42,421 nt of DNA from a virus. This document shows positions 9,528 through 30,731 of the stretch, piece after piece. Made by a program: the position numbers and the translations under genes. The DNA is taken from positions 1 to 42,421 of the IMG/VR virus record IMGVR_UViG_3300045965_000034. One strand, 5' to 3'. Under the pieces are notes generated by a model. It was given only the letters and a program-made list of their open reading frames with translations, was not told the DNA's origin and ran no database searches. Each line of letters begins with the position of its first letter. Position 1 is the first letter of the stretch.

Positions 9528-12500
9528 ATGACGGCAGCCGTCCGCCAGACCCCGACTCCCGAGAACGGCTATCCGTCCGGCGTCGGCGAGAAAACGCACG
9601 CGCGCGCGGTCAACACCGAGGTCGCGGCGCTCTGGGGCTTGGGGCCGGAGAGGCTGATCGACGTCGGCGGGACTGCGAACGCGATCACGGCGACCTCCGA
9701 CACGGATGTCGTGGGTGCGGCGGTCTCTTACACCGAAGGCAAGATCTACGAGCTGGTGCCGGTCGCGACCAATACCGGCGCGGTTACGATCAACATCGAC
9801 TCGATTGGCGTGACCGACGTGCTGAACCTGTACGGCTTGCCGCTGGTCGAGGGGGACCTGGTCGCCGACCGCCTTTGCCTGTTGGTGCGAGCGGGCGTGT
9901 CGTTCCGGCTCATGGCCAACATGGACATTGAGCAGCCGGTCACGGTTCACACTCCTCCAGAGTTTGCGTCACCAACAAGACTGCGCGCTGGGCAGAAGGT
10001 GCTCCAGCCTAAGAACTTCGACATCGTGCCTGGAGTCCACACCTTTGAGCAGGCGCAGCTGAATAGCGCGGGCTGGAACGCTCTGTTTGAGGCGTTGACC
10101 GCCGATGGCACCGGTCGCATCGAGAACGGGGACAACGACGTATATACGATCATTGGTGACGAGAGTATCTTCAGCGGGTTCGCCGCGATGGGGATCGCGC
10201 AAGACTGCAACGGTGTTCGCTGGAATTTCAACGGTTCCAGGTTTCAGATTTTCACCGAAGATGCTTTTGATATCCTTCAGGTCATGTTTCACTGGCAGCG
10301 GTGTACTGACGTTCGGATCACTGGCTACAATCGTCAGTGCGAGATGCCATTTCCACTTGGCGTCGGTGGTGCATACGATCACTACATCGACGAGTGCGTT
10401 GACTTTGAAATTCAGGGACAGTCTCGCAGAAGCGTTGGCATTCTGTTTCTCAACCGTTGGCCAACGGGCGGCGTCCCAGAGCGAACACGCTCACGGAACA
10501 TCAAGTTTGATCTGTACGCTGAGGAAGTTGCTTACCCCATTCTGGCGGTCAACGACGGCGACAATCTTGTTGGAACATTGCGCGCCGAGACGTGTGGCCG
10601 CGCCGTAGCCTACGCCAACATTCGCAACTTCGACGTGGTGGCGAGAGCGCGCAACTGCCAGTTGAACGGCTGTGTGATCGGCCACTACACGAACGACGAT
10701 CCAGATGAGTCCGTGACGTCGGGCAAGGTCCACTACACAGACATCGATAGTGACGAGATCATCACGTCACCGGTCCACGTCAACTTCCAGCAGGGAGACA
10801 ACACGGGCATCCCGAAGAACGGCCGGTTTGATGTTGAGGTTGAAGTCTACATCAAGGTGCCGGCGGCAGGCTCGGGTGCGATTTTTAACATCGCCCAATA
10901 TGGCGGCACTAACTCTCTTCCGGTGTTTGACGACGTTGGTGGCGTCCAGAACTTGAAATTCAGCGGCACCATTCTGGGCGACTTGGGCGACTTGGGGTAC
11001 CTGGGACAGGAGGCCTACGGGTGGGGTCCGCTATCCTCGCTCGATGTCAAGTTGACTGACATTAATGCTCCTGATCTCACAGGTGGTCCTGTTGGACTTC
11101 AGCTTGGTCCCTACGGGCGTTTCACGCTGGGCAATATCTATGCCCCTAACATGCTTTTGACATTTGAGAGCACTCGTCCGACGCTTGACGTTGTCGGTCA
11201 GGTTACCATGGCAAATTACGAAGCGTCGGTGGCCGCCTCGAAGATGGTGGAGATTTCCGACGGAGCCGTGAACGATCTGGCTCTGCGTTTCATCGAGGAC
11301 GCCAACACCGGGCTGTTCCGCATCGGAGCCGACAACATCGGTATGGCGATTGGAGGTGCGAAGTCGTTTGAACTTTCGACTGCCAGCACGGCGGTGGGGC
11401 ACAATTCGCTTCCCGTCACGTCGGTCGGAACCTTCAACACCGCGTTCGGCCTGTTCACTCTCGCGGCCAACACGTCGGGTACGGGCAACACCGCAGTCGG
11501 GTACAACGCTCTCGCGCTGAACACGACGGGCAATGGTAACGTCGCAGTCGGTGGCACCACGCTCGTTTCGAACACGACGGGTGAGAGCAATACTGGATGT
11601 GGGTCGGGAGCACTGGCAAACAACATTGGCGGCGACAGCAATGCCGCGTTCGGTCACTCCGCCCTGGCAGCAAACACGGAGGGAGTCGCCAACACGGGAC
11701 TTGGTACGGGTGCTCTCGGAGCAAATGTTACGGGCTCCAACAACACTGCCGTTGGTCATCAGGCGCTGATACTGAACACGGTTGACGGTAACACCGCTGT
11801 CGGCGGCAATGCTCTAGACGTGAGCACAACCGGCACCGGGCTCGTCGCTGTGGGAAAGGACGCTCTCGGAGCCAACACGACAGGCTCCAACAACACCGCT
11901 GTCGGCGCTGGAGCATCGGACGCTGTCACTACTGGGACGGGGAACACGGCAGTCGGCAAGGACGCGCTGGGAGCTAACTTGATCGGCACGAACAACACCG
12001 CTGTCGGCCTCAACGCTCTGCTGCTCACTACCGGCTCCAACTGCACCGCAGTCGGCAAGGACGCTCTCGCGACCAACACGACGGGCGTCAATACCGCTGT
12101 CGGTGCTCTGGCGATGGCCGCCAACACGACGGGCACGAGTAACACCGCGTTCGGCGGAGGCGCGCTCCAGTCCAACACTGTCGGCATCAGCAACGTCGCC
12201 TTCGGCCACGGCGCGATGAACATCAACACCACCGGAGGCACCAACGTCGCGGTCGGGGCTGGTGCTCTCGGATCGAGCACGACGGCTTCGGGCAACACGG
12301 TAGTCGGCTACAACGGGATGGTGCTGAACACGACTGGAGCGGCCAACGTCGCTGTCGGGTTGCAAGCTCTCGACGCAAACACGACTGGAAACAACAACGT
12401 CGCTGTCGGTCACAGCGCTCTGGGCGCGAACACGACTGCCGCCGACAACGTTGCGGTCGGTCACTCCGCGCTCCTGGTCAACGTCACTGGTACGCAGAAT

Positions 12501-14810
12501 ACTGCGGTCGGAACGAGTGCTCTCGCGGCCAACACTGCGAGCAGCAACACGTCGGTTGGATATCAGGCGATGCTGGCCACTACGAGCGGCGCCAACAACG
12601 TCGCTGTCGGCGCCAGTGCTCTAGGCGCCAACACCATCGGGGCCGGCAACGTAGCTGTCGGCAAGGCCGCTCTCGGAGCGAATACGGAAGGGAATAACAA
12701 CACTGCTGTTGGCTTGTCTGCTCTTGCCGCCAACACCACGGCAGTCGGCAACGTAGCTGTCGGGCAGAACGCGCTCGCCCTGAACACGATTGGCGATGAC
12801 AACGTTGCCGTTGGTCAGAGCGCGCTCGCGTCTAACGTGTCCGGCACCGACAACACCGCAGTCGGCAAGAACGCGCTCACCCTGAATACGGGCAATAACA
12901 ATACAGCGGTCGGCTCCGGCGCGCTCGACGCCAACACGTCGGGCGCGGGGAACACTGCGATCGGCCAGAACTCTCTCGGAGCGAACAGTACCGGCAACAA
13001 CAATACCGCCGTCGGCATCACCGCGCTTCGGGACAACAACGGCAGTGGCAATTCCGCGTACGGGTATCAGGCTCTGCTGGTTAATTCGAGTGGATCTAAT
13101 AACGTTTCTATCGGCGCAGCCTCGATGACTGCCAACACGACGGGCAACAGCAACACGGCGATTGGAGTGTCGGCTCTGACGGCAAACACCGAAGGAGCCA
13201 ACAACACCGCCGTTGGTCTGAGCGCTCTTGGTTCGAACACTACCGCCGGCAACAATACGGCAGTCGGCTATCAAGCGATGCTCGCTAACCAGACGGGCAC
13301 GCAGAACACCGCTGTCGGCCTCCAGGCTCTCGACGCAAACGTGTCCAACGTGCAGAACGTCGCTGTTGGCCAGAGCGCGCTCGGCGCGGCCACCGCCAAC
13401 AACAACACGGCGGTCGGCTTCAACTCGATGATCCTCAACACGACGGGAGCAGAGAATACCGCGATTGGACATGCCACTCTCGACGCCAACCTGACGGGCT
13501 CCAACAACGTCGCAGTAGGCAAGGACGCATTGGGCCTGAACACTGCCAGTGACAACACGGCGGTGGGCCATAGCGCGCTGGACGCGAACACGTCGGGTAC
13601 TGGAAATACTGCTGTTGGTAAGAACGCGCTGGGGGCGATTGCTACTACAAACGACAGCACTGCTGTCGGCTACCACGCACTGCTGGCCAATACCGCCGCC
13701 AACAATACGGCAGTCGGTTCCTTGGCGCTTGATGCAAACACGTCAGGAACTGGAAACACCGCAGTCGGTAAAGATGCTCTTGGTGCGATCACCACCACGA
13801 ATGACAGCACTGCGGTCGGGTACCAGGCGCTCCTCGTTAACACGGCGGCCAACAACACTGCGGTTGGTTCTTCCGCGCTCGACGCCAATACGTCAGGTAC
13901 CGGTAATACCGCCGTTGGTAAGGACGCTCTTGGGGCGATCACTACTGCGAACGATAGTACTGCCGTGGGTTATCAGGCCCTGTTGCTCAACACTGCTGCG
14001 AACAACACTGCAGTTGGCTCCGGGGCTGCAGATGCCACCACCACAGGTGCCGGTAACGTGGCGGTGGGCAAGGACGCGCTGGGGACCAGCACAGAAGGTG
14101 ATAACTGCGTTGCTCTGGGGCTCAACGCTCTCCTGGCCAATACGACGGCAGACAATAACGTTGCTGTCGGCTCCAGCGCGCTAGTGGCAGTCAATACCGG
14201 CGGCAACAACGTCGCCATCGGCTTCCAGGCTGGCAACACGCTCACGACGGGCACCGGCAACACCATCGTCGGTCATGACTCCGACACCTCGGCTAACAAC
14301 TCCGTAGACCAGATCGTGCTGGGCCGGGGTGTCACAGGTGTCGCCAACGCCGCAATCACGTTGGGTAACGCGACACGTGCCATCACGTGTAATTATGACA
14401 CGGATCAAACGTGGGACGCTCCCTCCGACGAGCGCATGAAGAACGTTCGGGGCAACTCCTCGCTGGGCCTCGCGTTCATCTGCTCGCTTCAGCCGATGGA
14501 GTACACGTTCAAGCCCCACTCGGAGTGGCCGAAGGAATGGGGCGTGGCTCCCGATGCGCCTCAGGTCGATCCCGAGCACGTAATGCTTGGCCTGCTCGCA
14601 CAGGAGGTCAAGGCGTCGCTGGAAGCGCAGGGCAACCCGACGTTCCACGGATGGGATGTCCAGAAAAACGGCCAGCAGATGATCGGTGAGTCTGCTTTCG
14701 TTTACCCGCTGATCAACGCGGTGAAGGAGCTCGCCGACCGCGTCAAGGAGCTGGAAGCGGAAGTACGGCGGATGCAGGGGATGCAGATCATGCCCGTGTC
14801 GAAGAACTGA
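9528..14810 (+). CDS. Giant tail fibre with YadA-like repeats and S74 chaperone
   Basis: Residues 1-140 form the probable virion anchor. Residues 150-600 look like a beta-helix/lectin-type region, with more A/T-rich codons than its neighbours. A fibre motif (RFIEDANTGLFRIGADNIGM) leads into about 57 repeats of roughly 17 residues, consensus N-T/V-AVG-x-x-AL-x-x-NTTG-x-x-N, from residue 621 to 1578. The C-terminal 128 residues are an intramolecular chaperone of the peptidase S74 family, starting at SDERMKN (Ser1633, Lys1638), with a final coiled coil (VKELADRVKELEAEVRRM). The chaperone trimerises the fibre and cuts itself off. At 1760 residues it is the largest gene in the genome. Confidence 0.9.
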   Translation: MTAAVRQTPTPENGYPSGVGEKTHARAVNTEVAALWGLGPERLIDVGGTANAITATSDTDVVGAAVSYTEGKIYELVPVATNTGAVTINIDSIGVTDVLNLYGLPLVEGDLVADRLCLLVRAGVSFRLMANMDIEQPVTVHTPPEFASPTRLRAGQKVLQPKNFDIVPGVHTFEQAQLNSAGWNALFEALTADGTGRIENGDNDVYTIIGDESIFSGFAAMGIAQDCNGVRWNFNGSRFQIFTEDAFDILQVMFHWQRCTDVRITGYNRQCEMPFPLGVGGAYDHYIDECVDFEIQGQSRRSVGILFLNRWPTGGVPERTRSRNIKFDLYAEEVAYPILAVNDGDNLVGTLRAETCGRAVAYANIRNFDVVARARNCQLNGCVIGHYTNDDPDESVTSGKVHYTDIDSDEIITSPVHVNFQQGDNTGIPKNGRFDVEVEVYIKVPAAGSGAIFNIAQYGGTNSLPVFDDVGGVQNLKFSGTILGDLGDLGYLGQEAYGWGPLSSLDVKLTDINAPDLTGGPVGLQLGPYGRFTLGNIYAPNMLLTFESTRPTLDVVGQVTMANYEASVAASKMVEISDGAVNDLALRFIEDANTGLFRIGADNIGMAIGGAKSFELSTASTAVGHNSLPVTSVGTFNTAFGLFTLAANTSGTGNTAVGYNALALNTTGNGNVAVGGTTLVSNTTGESNTGCGSGALANNIGGDSNAAFGHSALAANTEGVANTGLGTGALGANVTGSNNTAVGHQALILNTVDGNTAVGGNALDVSTTGTGLVAVGKDALGANTTGSNNTAVGAGASDAVTTGTGNTAVGKDALGANLIGTNNTAVGLNALLLTTGSNCTAVGKDALATNTTGVNTAVGALAMAANTTGTSNTAFGGGALQSNTVGISNVAFGHGAMNINTTGGTNVAVGAGALGSSTTASGNTVVGYNGMVLNTTGAANVAVGLQALDANTTGNNNVAVGHSALGANTTAADNVAVGHSALLVNVTGTQNTAVGTSALAANTASSNTSVGYQAMLATTSGANNVAVGASALGANTIGAGNVAVGKAALGANTEGNNNTAVGLSALAANTTAVGNVAVGQNALALNTIGDDNVAVGQSALASNVSGTDNTAVGKNALTLNTGNNNTAVGSGALDANTSGAGNTAIGQNSLGANSTGNNNTAVGITALRDNNGSGNSAYGYQALLVNSSGSNNVSIGAASMTANTTGNSNTAIGVSALTANTEGANNTAVGLSALGSNTTAGNNTAVGYQAMLANQTGTQNTAVGLQALDANVSNVQNVAVGQSALGAATANNNTAVGFNSMILNTTGAENTAIGHATLDANLTGSNNVAVGKDALGLNTASDNTAVGHSALDANTSGTGNTAVGKNALGAIATTNDSTAVGYHALLANTAANNTAVGSLALDANTSGTGNTAVGKDALGAITTTNDSTAVGYQALLVNTAANNTAVGSSALDANTSGTGNTAVGKDALGAITTANDSTAVGYQALLLNTAANNTAVGSGAADATTTGAGNVAVGKDALGTSTEGDNCVALGLNALLANTTADNNVAVGSSALVAVNTGGNNVAIGFQAGNTLTTGTGNTIVGHDSDTSANNSVDQIVLGRGVTGVANAAITLGNATRAITCNYDTDQTWDAPSDERMKNVRGNSSLGLAFICSLQPMEYTFKPHSEWPKEWGVAPDAPQVDPEHVMLGLLAQEVKASLEAQGNPTFHGWDVQKNGQQMIGESAFVYPLINAVKELADRVKELEAEVRRMQGMQIMPVSKN
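11388..14261 (+). repeat. About 57 tandem ~51-bp coding repeats
   Basis: These are the DNA repeats encoding the YadA-like fibre shaft. Unit length is 48-54 bp. Amino acid sequence is strongly conserved while codons vary freely, so few long exact DNA repeats exist. Near the end, three copies of a 150-bp higher-order unit (three repeats each) occur in register at about 13558, 13708 and 13858, which indicates recent duplication there. It is coding DNA, not a CRISPR or origin iteron array. Confidence 0.9.
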
Positions 14811-15914: not shown

Positions 15915-16139
15915 ATGTCCCGGCTGATCCGTTTTCTCGACGCCCACACCATCCTCGACCCCTTCATGGGCTCTGGCACCACTGGCGTTGCCTCCGTCAA
16001 GCTCGGCCGCAAGTTCATCGGCATAGAGATCGAACCGAAGTATTTCGAGATCGCGTGCAAGCGCATCGGGGACGCGCTCAAGCAGCCGGATATGTTCATC
16101 GAGAAGCCGAAGCCGCTCAAGCAGGAGATGATGCTGTGA
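15915..16139 (+). CDS. Orphan SAM-binding fragment of a beta-class DNA methyltransferase
   Basis: 74 residues that match only the C-terminal part of N4/N6 DNA methyltransferases: motif [13 protein letters not shown] (residues 15-26) and the following [21 protein letters not shown]. The catalytic (D/N/S)PP(Y/F) motif and target recognition part are absent, and no matching upstream sequence exists: the frame upstream overlaps the previous gene and resembles a methyltransferase for only about 6 residues (DDPVALM). It may bind S-adenosylmethionine or act with a host subunit, or be a remnant. The intact frame and close packing argue that it is expressed. Confidence 0.7.
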
Positions 16140-19455: not shown

Positions 19456-20643
19456 CTACGTTCGCTTTTTGCCCCCGGCCCGCCCTCTGTGGCGGGCTTT
19501 CCGTTTTAACGCATGGGCGGGCTTCCTGCGGGCTTTGGGCGTCCCGCCCGGCCGGTCGAAAACCGACCATGCCGCCCTCTGGTGGTCCGGGTGGTTGTGC
19601 CCGTAGACCCGGATCAGGGTTTCGACCGACATGCCGAGATAGCCCGCCGCCTCCCATGGCGGGGCACCGCGCTGCATCATCCATGTCGCCGCGGTGTGGC
19701 GCAGCGCGTGCGGCGTCACGTCGGCATCGAGCGCGGCGTCCCTCACGGCTTGCCGGAACGCCTTCGCCATCCGGCCGATCGGCTCCCCGTTCCATTCGAC
19801 CGCGTAGCGTTGGCCGGATTTCTTCCAGCGGCGAAGGTGGGCGAGCAGCCGCCGCGGCAGCACGATCGCCGGCTGGCGCTTCTTGGTCTGCCGGCGGTGC
19901 GCACGGGGATGGAAGACGCCGCGCTCGAGGTCGATATGCCCGCGGCCTGCTGTCGGCTGCAGGGCTGCTTCCACGATCGCACCCGCCCGCCGGCCGGCGT
20001 AAAGCGCGACCAGGATGAAGCGGGCGACATGCCGGCGGGTGTAGCGGGTCTTCGTCTTGCCGCTCTGCTCGTCCTTCGCCCGCCATGCCGCGAGCACCAG
20101 GCGCGCGGCCTCGGACCGTGTGAGCCAGCGCTCCCGCGCCGGCCGCCGCGGCGGCAGCGGCACGCTGATCACCACCCGGATGTGCCCCTCGTTGCGGTAG
20201 TGGTTGATCGCGGCTCGAAGATCCTCGAGCTCCCGGCGTGCCGCGGCATCCGTCGAGCGCTGCGCCACGTAGGCGCGGCAGAGCGCGCCGTTGATCTGCG
20301 ACAGCCGCTTGTCGCCGAAGAACCTCAACAGGATCGAGATGCGCGAGAGCGTAGCCGACGGGTCGGCGTGTCGTGGGGCTACGTCGCGGGCGTAGACCGC
20401 GAGCGCGTCCGCGACCGGGACGCGAACCGGATCACGTTCGCCTTCGGCCGCGCGGGTGACGTGCTTTTCCGAGATGTAGCGCGCGAGTTCTCTCTCAGCT
20501 CCTGCACGATCGTCTGACAGGCATCGCGTGCTCTGCTGATGTCGTCCGTCGATAATGAGCCAGACGGCGGGATGAGTTCGTCGCGCGCCCGCTCGGCGTT
20601 CTTCCCTGAGCCAGAGTCTCGGGCCTTGCCCGCGAGGCGGCAT
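19456..20643 (-). CDS. int: Tyrosine recombinase (integrase)
   Basis: 395 residues. Catalytic residues are visible: Arg in LYAGRRAGAI (218/219), HALRHT (His312, Arg315) and Tyr347 in RVYGHNHPD. The N-terminal arm-binding part includes PRLWLREE and the SAM-like core-binding region (residues about 70-160). It inserts the phage at the tRNA-Pro attB through the adjacent attP. The first 265 bp overlap the excisionase-like gene in another frame; the start is kept here because recognisable integrase sequence (WLIIDGRHQQSTRCLSDD) begins within the overlap. Confidence 0.9.
   Translation of the reverse strand: MPPRGQGPRLWLREERRAGARRTHPAVWLIIDGRHQQSTRCLSDDRAGAERELARYISEKHVTRAAEGERDPVRVPVADALAVYARDVAPRHADPSATLSRISILLRFFGDKRLSQINGALCRAYVAQRSTDAAARRELEDLRAAINHYRNEGHIRVVISVPLPPRRPARERWLTRSEAARLVLAAWRAKDEQSGKTKTRYTRRHVARFILVALYAGRRAGAIVEAALQPTAGRGHIDLERGVFHPRAHRRQTKKRQPAIVLPRRLLAHLRRWKKSGQRYAVEWNGEPIGRMAKAFRQAVRDAALDADVTPHALRHTAATWMMQRGAPPWEAAGYLGMSVETLIRVYGHNHPDHQRAAWSVFDRPGGTPKARRKPAHALKRKARHRGRAGGKKRT
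19478..19507 (+). terminator. Rho-independent terminator of the late operon (inside int)
   Basis: GCCCGCC, 6-base loop, GGCGGGC, then TTTCCGTTTT on the + strand. It lies within the last codons of the leftward integrase gene and faces the rightward late transcript, so it ends late transcription just past attP. Confidence 0.75.
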
Positions 20644-21846: not shown

Positions 21847-22050
21847 CTAGGGTGCCGCGTGCTTTCTGGCGCGCAGCCAATGCTGGGCTTCCTCGATCTT
21901 GGTCAACGCCAGCGAGTAGGTGCGGTGCCGCCCGAGTTCTTCGATCTCAAGGCGCGTCCGGGTTAAACCGATCATCAGGTCGTCGATCTTGTCGTCCTGT
22001 TCCGGCGTCAGGCCGTTGTTGAACGCCATCGCCGTGTTCTGCTCGCTCAT
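21847..22050 (-). CDS. Acb2/Tad1-hairpin-like small protein (candidate anti-CBASS/Thoeris sponge)
   Basis: 67 residues: a short acidic N-terminus, helix 1 (TPEQDDKIDDLMIGLTRTRL) and helix 2 (RTYSLALTKIEEAQHWLRAR). The second helix has the pattern R-x-x-S-x-A-x-T-K-x-E-E-A-x-x-W-L that I associate with the two-helix hairpin of the phage Acb2 and Tad1 families. Those proteins sequester cyclic nucleotide signals used by CBASS and Thoeris defence. The start follows GAGGGA by 6 bases. Family membership is by pattern only; function is inference. Its 5' end overlaps the upstream gene by 104 bp. Confidence 0.6.
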   Translation of the reverse strand: MSEQNTAMAFNNGLTPEQDDKIDDLMIGLTRTRLEIEELGRHRTYSLALTKIEEAQHWLRARKHAAP

Positions 22051-22294
22051 ATCGTTCCCTCATGATTTCCGCGCCGTGTTGAAGTCCCTCAAGGTAGGCC
22101 GACGCGATGACCTGCCAGAGTTCCAGCGACCGGCCGCGCCGGATGCTGGTCATGTTTCTTTCGGCACTCGGGCCGCAGAGGTGCCAAGCATCGGCCCATT
22201 GCTGTTCCGTCAGGCGCATGGACGAGAAGTCGCCTACCGGGACAACCGGGATCGACGGCCCGAACCTGACGAAATGCGCTTGCTTGGTCCTCAT
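21947..22294 (-). CDS. Hypothetical protein, up to 115 aa
   Basis: The core MRLTEQQWADAWHLCGPSAE...SLELWQVIASAYLEGLQHGAEIMRERYE looks like a real helical protein; a start at 22219 (Met26) is as likely as 22294, as neither has a strong ribosome site. The last 30 residues (EHGDGVQQRPDAGTGRQDRR) are read out of frame over the beginning of the Acb2-like gene and are low complexity. No family recognised. The 54 bases upstream hold no gene. Confidence 0.5.
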   Translation of the reverse strand: MRTKQAHFVRFGPSIPVVPVGDFSSMRLTEQQWADAWHLCGPSAERNMTSIRRGRSLELWQVIASAYLEGLQHGAEIMRERYERAEHGDGVQQRPDAGTGRQDRRPDDRFNPDAP

Positions 22295-23569: not shown

Positions 23570-23968
23570 TCAGAACTCCCGGCCTGTTGTGCGGTTGATC
23601 GGGCGAGCGAACGGCCGAAGCGGGATCTTCACGTTCGACGCGACTGTTCCAGTGAGCGGCTTGTGAATGCGGGATTTGATCCCGCGGGCGAGATCGCGGA
23701 CGCGGTTCGACTTGGCGACGACAGGCTTGTCGTGGCTGTTGGTCTTGAAGCGCCAGCAGGTCTTCGTCAGCACCGCGCAGTTGTCGAGATCGTTCCGGTG
23801 CGAGATCGCGTCGGGATCGATGTGCTCATAGAACGTGTTGCCGGGGCCGAGTGCGCAGCCGCAGGCGACACGGAAGACATGCGGGATCAGGTGGCATTCG
23901 CAGATCCCGTGCGAGCGCTCGTAAGCCTGGCGCTTGGTGTCGGTGGAGAATTCGCGACGGCGGGACAT
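23570..23968 (-). CDS. HNH endonuclease-like protein
   Basis: 132 residues. The motif core is YEHIDPDAISHRNDLDNCAVLTKTCW, then KTNSHDKPVVAKSNR: histidine in EHI, asparagines in the middle and a basic helix, as in HNH nucleases. Cysteines before it (CECHLIPHVFRVACGC) may hold a structural zinc. Start set at the ATG overlapping the stop of the DUF4326 gene; 23971 (ATGATG) is equally possible. Unlike packaging HNH proteins it is in the early operon, so it may target host or competitor DNA. Confidence 0.75.
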   Translation of the reverse strand: MSRRREFSTDTKRQAYERSHGICECHLIPHVFRVACGCALGPGNTFYEHIDPDAISHRNDLDNCAVLTKTCWRFKTNSHDKPVVAKSNRVRDLARGIKSRIHKPLTGTVASNVKIPLRPFARPINRTTGREF

Positions 23969-24276
23969 CATCGGTTCGCGATCTCCAACAGCACGTCGGC
24001 GTGGCAGGGCTGATCGAGCGGGCAGAAGCAGGCGAGGTTTTTGCCGCGGAGTTCGGGCAGCGCGGAGATCAGGTCGGGGCACTCTGCGAGATACTCCCGG
24101 TAGAACGCGACTGCCTCCGCATTGGTGCCGACGTTTGGCGAATGCGCCGAACCGCTGCCGTACCTGACGCGAGGATTAACAACGCAGGGGTTGCCCCATT
24201 TCGTGCCGCGCGACACGACGACGGTGTTGTCGGGCATCTTCCAGCCCCTGGCGATGGGGAGTTTGAAGTGCTTCAT
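23968..24276 (-). CDS. DUF4326 family protein
   Basis: 102 residues with the family's typical sequence: VVVSRGTKWGNPCVV, AVAFYREYLAECPDLISALPELRGKNLACFCPLDQPCHADVLLEIAN. The cysteines and histidine in the second block could bind metal. The family is common in phages; its biochemical role is not known to me. Strong Shine-Dalgarno (GGGAGG). It overlaps both neighbours by a few bases. Confidence 0.8.
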   Translation of the reverse strand: MKHFKLPIARGWKMPDNTVVVSRGTKWGNPCVVNPRVRYGSGSAHSPNVGTNAEAVAFYREYLAECPDLISALPELRGKNLACFCPLDQPCHADVLLEIANR

Positions 24277-25761: not shown

Positions 25762-26337
25762 CTAGCGGCGGCTGGTCTGGATCGATGTCACCACGCCGTT
25801 CCTGAGATAAACGTAATCGTAGCCGTAGACCAGTTGTTCGTGATCCCCGCCGACCGTTGTCGTGGTGTTGATTCGCTGCGGCCTGCCCCAGCATGAGGCG
25901 TAGACCTGGGCCCGCGTCATGCCGACCGAGACGCCACCACGGCGATCGCAATCAGCCTTCTCAGCCAGCTTCCGCTTGTGCTCGGTTTCGCTGTCGGCCG
26001 AAATCGTCTTGTACCAATCGATATAGCCGGTCCGACCGTCTGCCGTTCGGACCAAATAGGCATCGGGGCCGGCTGGGCCCATCACGGCACTCTCGATCGA
26101 AAACATCCCTGCGGCATAGTTGAAGCACTTCTCACGCGTGCGGTAGGTGTGATCCTTGGGCTGCTCACAGATCGCCAACGCCCCGCGGGAGGGGTTCACC
26201 CAAAGCTTGCGGCCGACGTACTCGTCTTGGGCATTGGCGACGGCAGTCGTTGAGGGATAATCAGGGATCGAGCTGACACAGCTTGCGGCCGATAGCGCAA
26301 CGACTGCGGCGCTTGCGATCCCCCGCGCCGTCTTCAT
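25762..26337 (-). CDS. Putative lipoprotein with BamE/SmpA-like domain, cotranscribed with the repressor
   Basis: 191 residues. The N-terminus is a secretion signal with a cysteine at residue 20 (AAVVALSAASC), an imperfect lipobox. The C-terminal part, GMTRAQVYASCWGRPQRINT...GGDHEQLVYGYDYVYLRNGVVTSI, follows the SmpA/BamE-like pattern found in small envelope lipoproteins. The central part has paired cysteines. It overlaps the repressor stop by 4 bases, so it should be made in the lysogen. That makes it a candidate lysogenic conversion gene, for example for superinfection exclusion at the envelope. Confidence 0.75.
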   Translation of the reverse strand: MKTARGIASAAVVALSAASCVSSIPDYPSTTAVANAQDEYVGRKLWVNPSRGALAICEQPKDHTYRTREKCFNYAAGMFSIESAVMGPAGPDAYLVRTADGRTGYIDWYKTISADSETEHKRKLAEKADCDRRGGVSVGMTRAQVYASCWGRPQRINTTTTVGGDHEQLVYGYDYVYLRNGVVTSIQTSRR

Positions 26338-26696
26338 TTTCGTCGGGTGCGCTTCTCGCCGACGATGACGGCGGCATGCTTTGCGATTTGGTCACGTTCC
26401 GCTGGCGTCGCCCGTGCGACGATCGACCATAGCGGCTCGTCGGCGCTCGGATCGGAGCTGATCACCATGCCGGCGTCGATGCCAAGCGCCGCGGCGAGCT
26501 TGTGCAGGCTTTCCGGGCTGTATCCAGCCGTGGCGTTCTCCACGCTCGACACCATGCCGACCGACATGTGGGCGGCTTCCGCCAGCTCTTCCTGCGTCCA
26601 GCCGCGAAGCTCGCGCCAATGCGCGAGATAGTTCTTGCGATAGCTAGGAGGCGGGGCCTTGTCCCGCCCGGTTTTGTAGGGGCCACGTTTTGACAT
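26334..26696 (-). CDS. XRE-family phage repressor (CI-like)
   Basis: 120 residues; helix-turn-helix WRELRGWTQEELAEAAHMSVGMVSSVENATAGYSPESL (about residues 25-65), then a short C-terminal helical region instead of a LexA-type protease domain. An in-frame ATG at 26759 would add 21 residues and lies about 9 bases after a - strand TATAAT; the 26696 start is preferred because family-like sequence begins there. Divergent from the Cro-like gene, as expected of an immunity repressor. Without an S24 domain, induction is probably not by simple RecA-stimulated cleavage. Confidence 0.8.
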   Translation of the reverse strand: MSKRGPYKTGRDKAPPPSYRKNYLAHWRELRGWTQEELAEAAHMSVGMVSSVENATAGYSPESLHKLAAALGIDAGMVISSDPSADEPLWSIVARATPAERDQIAKHAAVIVGEKRTRRK

Positions 26697-26741
26697 GGCC
26701 GAATTTTCAACGGCGGCTGTCAACAGTGCCACGGCACCACC

Positions 26742-26791
26742 TTGAATTTTTGATTGCATTGAAATTTTAACAGGATTATAGATTTCGCCCC
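26742..26791. promoter_or_regulatory. Divergent immunity promoters and operator
   Basis: Rightward: -35 TTGCAT (26754-26759), 17-bp spacer, -10 TATAGA (26777-26782), giving a transcript that begins about 3 bases before the Cro-like ATG. Leftward: - strand TATAAT at 26775-26780 with a poor -35, typical of a repressor-maintenance promoter. The shared 14-mer ATTGCATTGAAATT (26753-26766) covers the rightward -35, and further TTGAA half sites lie at 26742 and, inverted, near 26703. Confidence 0.75.
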
Positions 26792-27001
26792 ATGAAACTC
26801 GCCGACTGGTTCAAACTGCCGAACGACGACGGCTCCGAACGCCGCAAGGTCGCGTTCGCGAAGGCGATCGGCAAGACACCCGGCACGGTTACAGCCTATC
26901 TCGATGGCCGGGCATGGCCCGGCCGTGAGGCAATGGAGGCCATCGTCCGCGCGACTGGCGGCCAGGTTACGGCCAACGATTTCCTCGAGGCCGCCGAATG
27001 A
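26792..27001 (+). CDS. Cro/YdaS-like DNA-binding protein
   Basis: 69 residues: MKLADWFKLPNDDGSERRKVAFAKAIGKTPGTVTAYLDGRAWPGREAMEAIVRATGG. A compact helix-turn-helix of the YdaS/Cro antirepressor type. It diverges from the repressor across a shared operator and probably shuts off repressor synthesis in the lytic cycle. Its mRNA looks nearly leaderless, with no Shine-Dalgarno. Confidence 0.75.
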   Translation: MKLADWFKLPNDDGSERRKVAFAKAIGKTPGTVTAYLDGRAWPGREAMEAIVRATGGQVTANDFLEAAE

Positions 27002-29164: not shown

Positions 29165-29553
29165 TCGCGCTCTGGTATCTCGCCACGCCATACACGAATT
29201 ACGAGGCCGGCATCGAGGCGGCGTTTCGTGATGCGGCCGTGCTCGCGTCGAGGCTGCTGCGCGCGGGCTACCGCGTCTATTCCCCGATCGTGCACACGCA
29301 CCCGCTCGCAATCCACGGCGGCCTCGATCCTCTCGACCACTCGATCTGGCTCCCGTTCGACGAAGCGATGATGGAGCGCTGCGACCGATTGATCGTCGCG
29401 CACATGAAGGGCTGGCAGGCGTCGCGCGGCATCGCCCACGAGATCGAATTCTTCGAGCGGGCCGGCAAGCCGATCTGGGATCTCGATCCGGTGACGCTGC
29501 AGCTCGCCAAACGGCGCGGACCGATCACGCGCGAGGCTGTGACGGCCGCATGA
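29161..29553 (+). CDS. DUF1937-like, nucleoside deoxyribosyltransferase-fold protein
   Basis: 130 residues from the ATG that overlaps the previous stop. Pattern MIALWYLATPYTNYEAGIEAAF...SPIVHTHPLA...WLPFDEAMMERCDRLIVAHMKGWQASRGIAHEI fits DUF1937, a relative of nucleoside 2-deoxyribosyltransferases. The family may cleave or exchange the base of nucleosides, or act on signalling nucleotides; no substrate can be read from the sequence. Confidence 0.75.
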   Translation: MIALWYLATPYTNYEAGIEAAFRDAAVLASRLLRAGYRVYSPIVHTHPLAIHGGLDPLDHSIWLPFDEAMMERCDRLIVAHMKGWQASRGIAHEIEFFERAGKPIWDLDPVTLQLAKRRGPITREAVTAA

Positions 29554-30731
29554 CCACTCTCGCCCAATACGACGCAGCTCGAGCAGCCCTCGCGCAAGCG
29601 ACGCGCATCGATGAAGTGCTGCCGCTGTTGGACGAGTTCGAGCTCGCCAAGGTCCGCGCCCGTCAGATCAAGGACCAGGCGCTGTTGGCCGACGCGACCG
29701 AATTCCAGTTGCGGGCCGAGCGCAGGCTTGGCCAGGTCATCGAGGCAGCCAAGTCGGCCGGGCTGTTTCGGCAGGGCCGGCAGCCTGAAAAAAGTACCGG
29801 GCAGGAACCTTTTCGACCGACGCTCGCCGAAGCCGGGATCGACAAGAAACTGTCAGCCCGCGCCCAGGGCCGGGCATCCATTGCCGAGCAAGCCTTCGAA
29901 CTGATGGTGGCTCAGGCCCGCGAGCGGATTGCGGCGGGCGGGGCGAAGATCATCGACGACGCCAACCGGGCCGCCGACAAGCAGGCCGCACGCGCCGAGC
30001 GAGAAGCCGCCCTTGGCGCAAAGCAGGCCGCGCTCCCGAAAGCCCGCTATGGCGTCATCGTGGCGGATCCCGAATGGCGCTTCGAACCATGGTCACGGTC
30101 GACCGGCATGGATCGATCAGCCGACAACCACTATCCGACCTCCTGTCTCGACGTGATCAAGGCCCGCGACGTGCCGTCGATCGCAGCCGACGACTGCGTG
30201 CTGTTCCTGTGGGCGACCGTGCCGATGCTGCCGCACGCGCTCGCCGTGATGGAAGCCTGGGGCTTCGCCTACGTCTCGCACTACGTCTGGGACAAGCAGA
30301 AAGCGGGCACCGGCTACTGGAACCGCAACGTGCATGAGTTGCTGCTGATCGGCACCAGGGGAAAGATTCCGGCACCGGCGCCCGGCACTCAGAAGAACTC
30401 GATCATCGAGGCGCCGGCGACGAAGCACAGCGCGAAGCCGGAACTGTTCCTCGAGATGATCGAGGGCTACTACCCGAGCCTGCCCAAGATCGAATTGAAC
30501 CGCCGCGGCCCGCCGCGCAAGGGCTGGGCTGCGTGGGGCAACCAGGCCGAACCCGGCGAGTTCGACGCGACCACGGGCGAGCTCCATCCCCATCCCCGTG
30601 AGACTGCGACGCCGGAAAACACACCGGCAGTCGCGCATGAACCAATCGATCTCACAATCCCGGATTTCCTCCGTCGTGTTCCAGTTCCCCCGCGTGCTTC
30701 CATCTCGGATGACGCGGGGAACACCGGATGA
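29550..30731 (+). CDS. MT-A70 family DNA N6-adenine methyltransferase
   Basis: 393 residues. N-terminal helical region (residues 1-140, including TLAEAGIDKKLSARAQ) precedes the MT-A70 catalytic domain with VIVADPEWRF; Asp173-Pro-Glu-Trp176 is a variant of the DPPW motif. Later motifs are LFLWATVPMLPHALAVMEAWGF, VWDKQKAGTGYWNRNVHELLLIGTRG and KIELNRRGPPRKGW. It probably methylates phage DNA to evade restriction or to mark timing. There is no partner nuclease nearby, so it is an orphan. The Pro-to-Glu change in the catalytic motif is notable. Confidence 0.85.
   Translation: MTTLAQYDAARAALAQATRIDEVLPLLDEFELAKVRARQIKDQALLADATEFQLRAERRLGQVIEAAKSAGLFRQGRQPEKSTGQEPFRPTLAEAGIDKKLSARAQGRASIAEQAFELMVAQARERIAAGGAKIIDDANRAADKQAARAEREAALGAKQAALPKARYGVIVADPEWRFEPWSRSTGMDRSADNHYPTSCLDVIKARDVPSIAADDCVLFLWATVPMLPHALAVMEAWGFAYVSHYVWDKQKAGTGYWNRNVHELLLIGTRGKIPAPAPGTQKNSIIEAPATKHSAKPELFLEMIEGYYPSLPKIELNRRGPPRKGWAAWGNQAEPGEFDATTGELHPHPRETATPENTPAVAHEPIDLTIPDFLRRVPVPPRASISDDAGNTG

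Follow-up and report, generated by a model that had tools for sequence, protein, structure and literature searches.

The locus analysed here, a short open reading frame in a 42,421-nucleotide stretch of viral DNA (hereafter the window), raises the question of whether so small a protein can act as a sponge for the nucleotide signals of host immunity and, if so, which of the known sponges it resembles and which signal it would hold. The ORF of 67 residues is present at 21847..22050 (including the stop codon), as a preliminary description had proposed, and lies on the minus strand, which that description had omitted; the plus strand in the same frame is interrupted and holds no continuous ORF. 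Read from 22050 down to 21847, the gene, which we call from the ORF, a Pfam match and homologues, encodes MSEQNTAMAFNNGLTPEQDDKIDDLMIGLTRTRLEIEELGRHRTYSLALTKIEEAQHWLRARKHAAP. A Shine-Dalgarno-like GAGGG, read from the sequence, is found at 22057..22061 (minus strand), 6 nt upstream of the start codon (ATG, 22050).

A hairpin gene under protein-level constraint

A search with the Acb2/Tad1 hairpin HMM, which had been suggested as a check, matched PF24729 (Acb2/Tad1, hairpin domain) to residues 11-59 of the protein with 28.3 bits (E = 2.1e-6), the curated gathering cut-off being 27 bits. We also built Acb2 and Tad1 profiles from hairpins and scored them on the 757 stop-to-stop six-frame segments of the window. 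The protein scored 26.0-27.2 bits with the Acb2 and 29.3-29.5 bits with the Tad1 profiles, while none of the other segments scored (next best 5.0 and 4.3 bits, respectively), and the highest scores among 20,000 shuffled versions of it were 13.0 (Acb2) and 13.2 bits (Tad1). The pattern R-x-x-S-x-A-x-T-K-x-E-E-A-x-x-W-L, from which the assignment had originally been made, is found letter by letter as RTYSLALTKIEEAQHWL, spanning R43-TY-S-L-A-L-T-K-I-E-E-A-QH-W-L59. A single-sequence search of the PDB gave helical matches (ETO proteins, E 0.27-0.8), which we rejected as chance, and tblastn of the protein gave no match among 50,697 phage records or among 72,556 plasmids. Real Acb2 genes were fetched with a consensus-like Acb2 sequence, which had no other use.

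The AlphaFold2 model (28-row alignment, mean pLDDT 89.5) is a two-helix hairpin, as had been predicted, with long antiparallel helices at residues 16-39 (21934..22005, minus strand) and 43-64 (21859..21924, minus strand) and no strands. The second helix carries the core that Acb2 and Tad1 have in common, R43-x3-L47A48-x-T50K51-x-E53E54A55-x-H57W58L59. The same procedure applied to a bona fide Acb2 control, L071 (GRSREMSLAITKIEEAAMWAVKHITK), gave helices of the same lengths (17-40 and 44-65), preceded by a short N-terminal helix (residues 3-7). A short helix ahead of the hairpin is a feature of Acb2 (PMC10419184); residues 1-15 of our model are coil (low confidence for 1-10), with no N-terminal helix. 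In Foldseek searches of viral models (BFVD), Acb2/Tad1 hairpin proteins were among the top matches, the first with probability 1.00 and E 0.2; against the PDB, T4 Acb2 (7uq2) came fourth as a weak match (E 3.8, probability 0.33). Since even the control Acb2 found 7uq2, 8h2x and CbTad1 at E 0.37-2, Foldseek is consistent with the assignment but not decisive for a 67-residue hairpin.

The length of the ORF is no proof of a gene, because the window contains 378 ORFs with 40 aa or more and similar lengths are common; the case is carried by homology and selection. The GC content at the three codon positions (0.59/0.40/0.85) is a coding pattern typical of a GC-rich genome. Compared with its nearest relative, L001, the gene shows 4, 4 and 17 differences at codon positions 1, 2 and 3, and the comparisons with L002 (9/4/18) and L003 (10/6/19) show the same excess at third positions, which indicates purifying selection on the protein. 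That the ORF arose by chance in GC-rich DNA can be dismissed, as it has six homologues with selection at the codon level and a Pfam match that shuffled sequences fall far short of.

A separate branch and its phage setting

The six relatives of the same architecture (L001, L002, L003, L066, L067 and L085) are 58-90% identical to the window protein; L085 lies within a Rhizobiaceae metagenome-assembled genome (MAG). All seven members share F10, N12-G13-L14, D19-D20, D23, I27, I36 and G40 in the N-terminal half, and H42-R43, L47-A48, T50-K51-I52-E53-E54-A55, H57-W58-L59 and R62-K63 in the C-terminal half. The relatives score 18.5-27 bits with PF24729, and L066 alone passes besides the window protein; other Acb2-type genes of Rhizobiaceae genomes score 45-71 bits, against 18-28 for this clade. 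Outside the clade, the next relatives are Tad1 proteins of ~120 aa (35-43% identity), with an extra N-terminal part and an RGVEGT tail, which were recognised as Tad1 by a PDB profile search (4e-28). Acb2 proteins such as L071 are also among the relatives.

Profile–profile and HMM scores cannot separate Acb2 from Tad1 here, since the scores of the clade are similar for the two families. In an unrooted tree of 68 columns, Acb2 (100/96), Tad1 (94/86) and the clade (94/92) each fall on one side of a branch. The clade lies outside the Acb2 branch (100/96 for Acb2 without the clade, from few columns). It is nested in neither family, the exact branching order being unsure with so few columns. The Acb2/Tad1-type assignment of the preliminary description is thus supported by PF24729, by the fold and by both sets of relatives, and is refined: the window protein belongs with neither the plain Acb2 proteins nor Tad1, and forms a third branch beside them. 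A different oddity is a group of Acb2-type proteins (L160-L163) with YRVGINFNPNGDDxVxxIKR before a long loop, in which a shorter distance than in classical Acb2 separates the aromatic residue from the lysine.

The window encodes a terminase, a portal, an S49 protease, a tape measure, a tail fibre J and a tail-spike protein, together with a tyrosine integrase (phrog_1; 19456..20643, minus strand), an XRE-type phage (immunity) repressor (26334..26759, minus strand) and a Cro-like gene (26792..27001), from which we conclude that it comes from a temperate siphovirus-like phage. The central 24 kb had no near match among phage records except for a 58-bp stretch. A 1760-aa tail-spike or virion protein (9528-14810, plus strand) has many domain matches that recur along it, with as many as 15 stretches matching one PHROG. 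At 15930-16139 (plus strand) the window holds the 3' end of a DNA methyltransferase gene, as an orphan fragment that lacks the 5' part, with ~80% DNA identity to the complete methyltransferase genes of L003 and L085, both of them carriers of the clade. A full DNA methyltransferase (phrog_359; MTase_II in PADLOC), possibly anti-restriction, is encoded at 29550-30731 (plus strand).

The hairpin gene is part of a leftward block that runs from the repressor at its head to the integrase at its far end. The surrounding small ORFs are mostly without Pfam match, so that the "operon of ORFans" of the preliminary description holds as a leftward block of such ORFs; the hairpin gene may be expressed early or in the lysogen. 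A promoter scan gave nothing above chance. The sole clear Pfam match among these small ORFs is a DUF4326 protein (PF14216, 79.8 bits; 23968-24276, minus strand). A 191-aa lipoprotein-like ORF (25762-26337, minus strand; signal ...LSAASC) adjoins the repressor and is possibly a lysogenic-conversion gene. PADLOC found nothing of note on the ORFs around the hairpin gene; a 17.5-bit match of one neighbouring ORF to LmuB was discounted as a coiled-coil effect.

Likeness to L001 is confined to 171 bp, all within the hairpin gene, and the compared flanks are unrelated, which shows that this gene is exchanged on its own, as a cassette. In L002 and L003, homology runs on into the ORF upstream, which in the window is a 115-aa ORFan (21947..22294, minus strand) whose final 104 bp overlap the hairpin gene. 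Both relatives keep the upstream part of this ORFan, with the same overlap and stop, which suggests a conserved two-gene unit; the two genes may be translationally coupled.

Binding residues and the CBASS of one host

The preliminary description had named both CBASS and Thoeris signals as ligands of such proteins. We take the basic residue 15 positions after the Acb2 tyrosine (Y8 of T4, Y11 of p26), which is K26 of p26, to form with it the pair that holds cyclic dinucleotides. Of 41 Acb2 rows, 31 have this aromatic-x14-K/R pair, and several of those that miss it are truncated; none of the 7 clade members has it. Counted without gaps from R43, the lysine position holds M, T or I in 7 of 7 members, and is M26 in helix 1 of the window protein. 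In T4 Acb2, Y8A has been described as a binding mutant (PMC12657218, PMC12657230). The parts that hold the Thoeris signal are also lost: in Tad1, the surroundings of gcADPR are formed by the C-terminal tail and by loops that belong to the beta domain (PMC12043709), and the N-terminal beta domain and the tail are absent from all seven members. The alignment, with inferred numbering, places E37 and Y45 of the window protein at positions F82 and N92 of CbTad1. These two CbTad1 residues are presumably its contacts to gcADPR.

What is kept is the common core: R43, A48, T50, E53, A55 and W58 do not vary among 28 proteins from the clade, Acb2 and Tad1. T50 corresponds to T68 of T4 Acb2, where T68M has been described as lowering binding (PMC12657230); R43 is not universal in the superfamily, since T4 Acb2 has D61 at that place. 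Acb2 and Tad1 both bind trinucleotides at the ends of a trimer channel (PMC12043709), and PDB 8kbf is CbTad1 with cA3, which makes the shared core the natural candidate for a trinucleotide site. Because this core is kept and the dinucleotide pair of Acb2 and the ADP-ribose parts of Tad1 are not, a cyclic trinucleotide would be the likeliest ligand, and the original proposal narrows to a predicted cyclic-trinucleotide CBASS signal.

The MAG with L085 (G006) is the sole named genome holding a clade member; searches of 398 genomes from the order and 385 from the class turned up no further lysogen with the clade. On a different contig, G006 also encodes a complete CBASS operon (L172 5594-9130, minus strand) consisting of NucC, a CD-NTase, two HORMA proteins and TRIP13, flanked on both sides by transposase-like genes. 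Its NucC matches E. coli NucC (6p7o) at E 1.7e-113, and NucC is switched on by cA3 (PMC12043709). As strong NucC matches occur in only 2 of 151 sampled Rhizobiaceae genomes, the co-occurrence of this sponge candidate with NucC is unlikely to be due to chance, though it is one case (n=1), in a MAG that may be mixed.

The best joint explanation of these observations, to which we give a probability of about 0.75, is that the protein is a minimal Acb2/Tad1-superfamily sponge for nucleotide signals and that its likeliest ligand is a cyclic trinucleotide. In this mechanism, two-helix hairpins would most likely assemble into a compact hexamer, as known for Acb2 and Tad1, which would sequester a host immune signal without cutting it. 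A cyclic trinucleotide (cA3 or similar) would be bound at the trimer ends; with the signal held, the effector would stay off, which would counter CBASS with NucC or Cap4-type effectors. That the window protein acts as a sponge at all is highly probable. That its ligands are mainly trinucleotides, as predicted from conserved residues without coordinates and from a single MAG, has slightly less than an even chance. A further, tentative step, which we consider somewhat improbable, would make the clade a third subfamily with the smallest sponge architecture, in which the dinucleotide and ADP-ribose pockets were lost, leaving a sponge dedicated to cyclic trinucleotides that would act in Alphaproteobacteria against CBASS of the cA3/NucC type.

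The rival to be taken most seriously is an ordinary Acb2 whose dinucleotide pocket has been re-arranged: the protein would bind cyclic dinucleotides, with or without trinucleotides, F10 stacking on the base and R/K31, R62 and K63 replacing the lysine. It would fit the Acb2-like size and loop length and the missing beta domain, and F10, R62 and K63 are invariant in the clade, with R or K at position 31 in 7 of 7 members and F10 only one residue off the Acb2 tyrosine position. However, with M, T or I at the lysine place throughout, the aromatic-x14-K/R spacing gone and the clade set outside Acb2 in the tree, we regard this as unlikely, if worth keeping in mind. It is still less probable that the hairpin was kept as a scaffold with nucleotide binding lost, for some other role in lysogeny or the early block. 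The loss of several ligand residues and a family score close to the cut-off would agree with this, yet the most conserved stretch is exactly the Acb2/Tad1 common core, and purifying selection and exchange as a single-gene cassette fit a counter-defence gene. A shortened Tad1, which lost its beta domain and still binds an ADP-ribose-type Thoeris signal, is very unlikely, although Tad1 proteins give the best single-sequence matches beyond the clade, the two groups share FxNG ahead of helix 1 and HWL-x2-R within helix 2, and the unrooted tree puts the clade on the side of Tad1. Against it stand the missing beta domain and RGVEGT tail, the changed positions of the presumed gcADPR contacts and a hairpin loop two residues shorter than in Tad1.

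Comparison with known sponges

Sponges of the Acb2/Tad1 superfamily are already known, as are small Acb2 proteins (65-71 aa) in actinophages and Paenibacillus phages. What is new is a branch that, by its sequences, has neither of the known side pockets and lies mostly at or below the PF24729 cut-off; at such scores automated annotation misses these sponges, and the branch would flag them. Acb2 and Tad1 hexamers have two kinds of pocket, and a natural one-pocket branch, if confirmed, would show that the trinucleotide site alone suffices for selection, help to place the ancestor that Acb2 and Tad1 share, and offer a small, specific candidate scaffold for binding cA3. Should neither CBASS signal bind to the branch, this would suggest that Rhizobiaceae-type hosts use a signal as yet unrecognised.

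Other sponges with the same proposed mode of action are less close. Acb4 and Tad2 also sequester nucleotide signals (PMC11722364, PMC12043709), but their fold differs and we found no sequence relation to the window protein. The two sponges of the superfamily can adjoin one another: in Lactococcus phage CHPC971 (L079 1399-2077, gp67-gp68) an Acb2-like gene is followed on the same strand by a Tad1-like gene, both annotated as hypothetical.

With Tad1 (CbTad1; PDB 7uav, 8smd and 8kbf) the protein shares FxNG before helix 1 and a second helix like RENALALTKIEEAQHWLxxR; unlike Tad1, it has neither the N-terminal beta domain (~50 residues) nor the tail. With Acb2 (T4 Vs.4, PDB 7uq2; Pseudomonas phage p26, PDB 8h2j and 8h2x; PF24729) it shares the hairpin domain, the absence of a beta domain, a loop of the length found in L071 and the core SLAxTKIEEA followed by W. 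It also falls into the size class of the small Acb2 proteins of Sitara, Hanem, Sephiroth, Hoonter and oengus, and a hairpin without the Tad1 beta domain in ~65-95 aa, which is one mark of Acb2, describes it as well. In contrast to Acb2, it has neither the dinucleotide pair nor, in the model, the N-terminal helix, and its helix 2 ends in HWLRxRKH where Acb2 has MWAxxxI.
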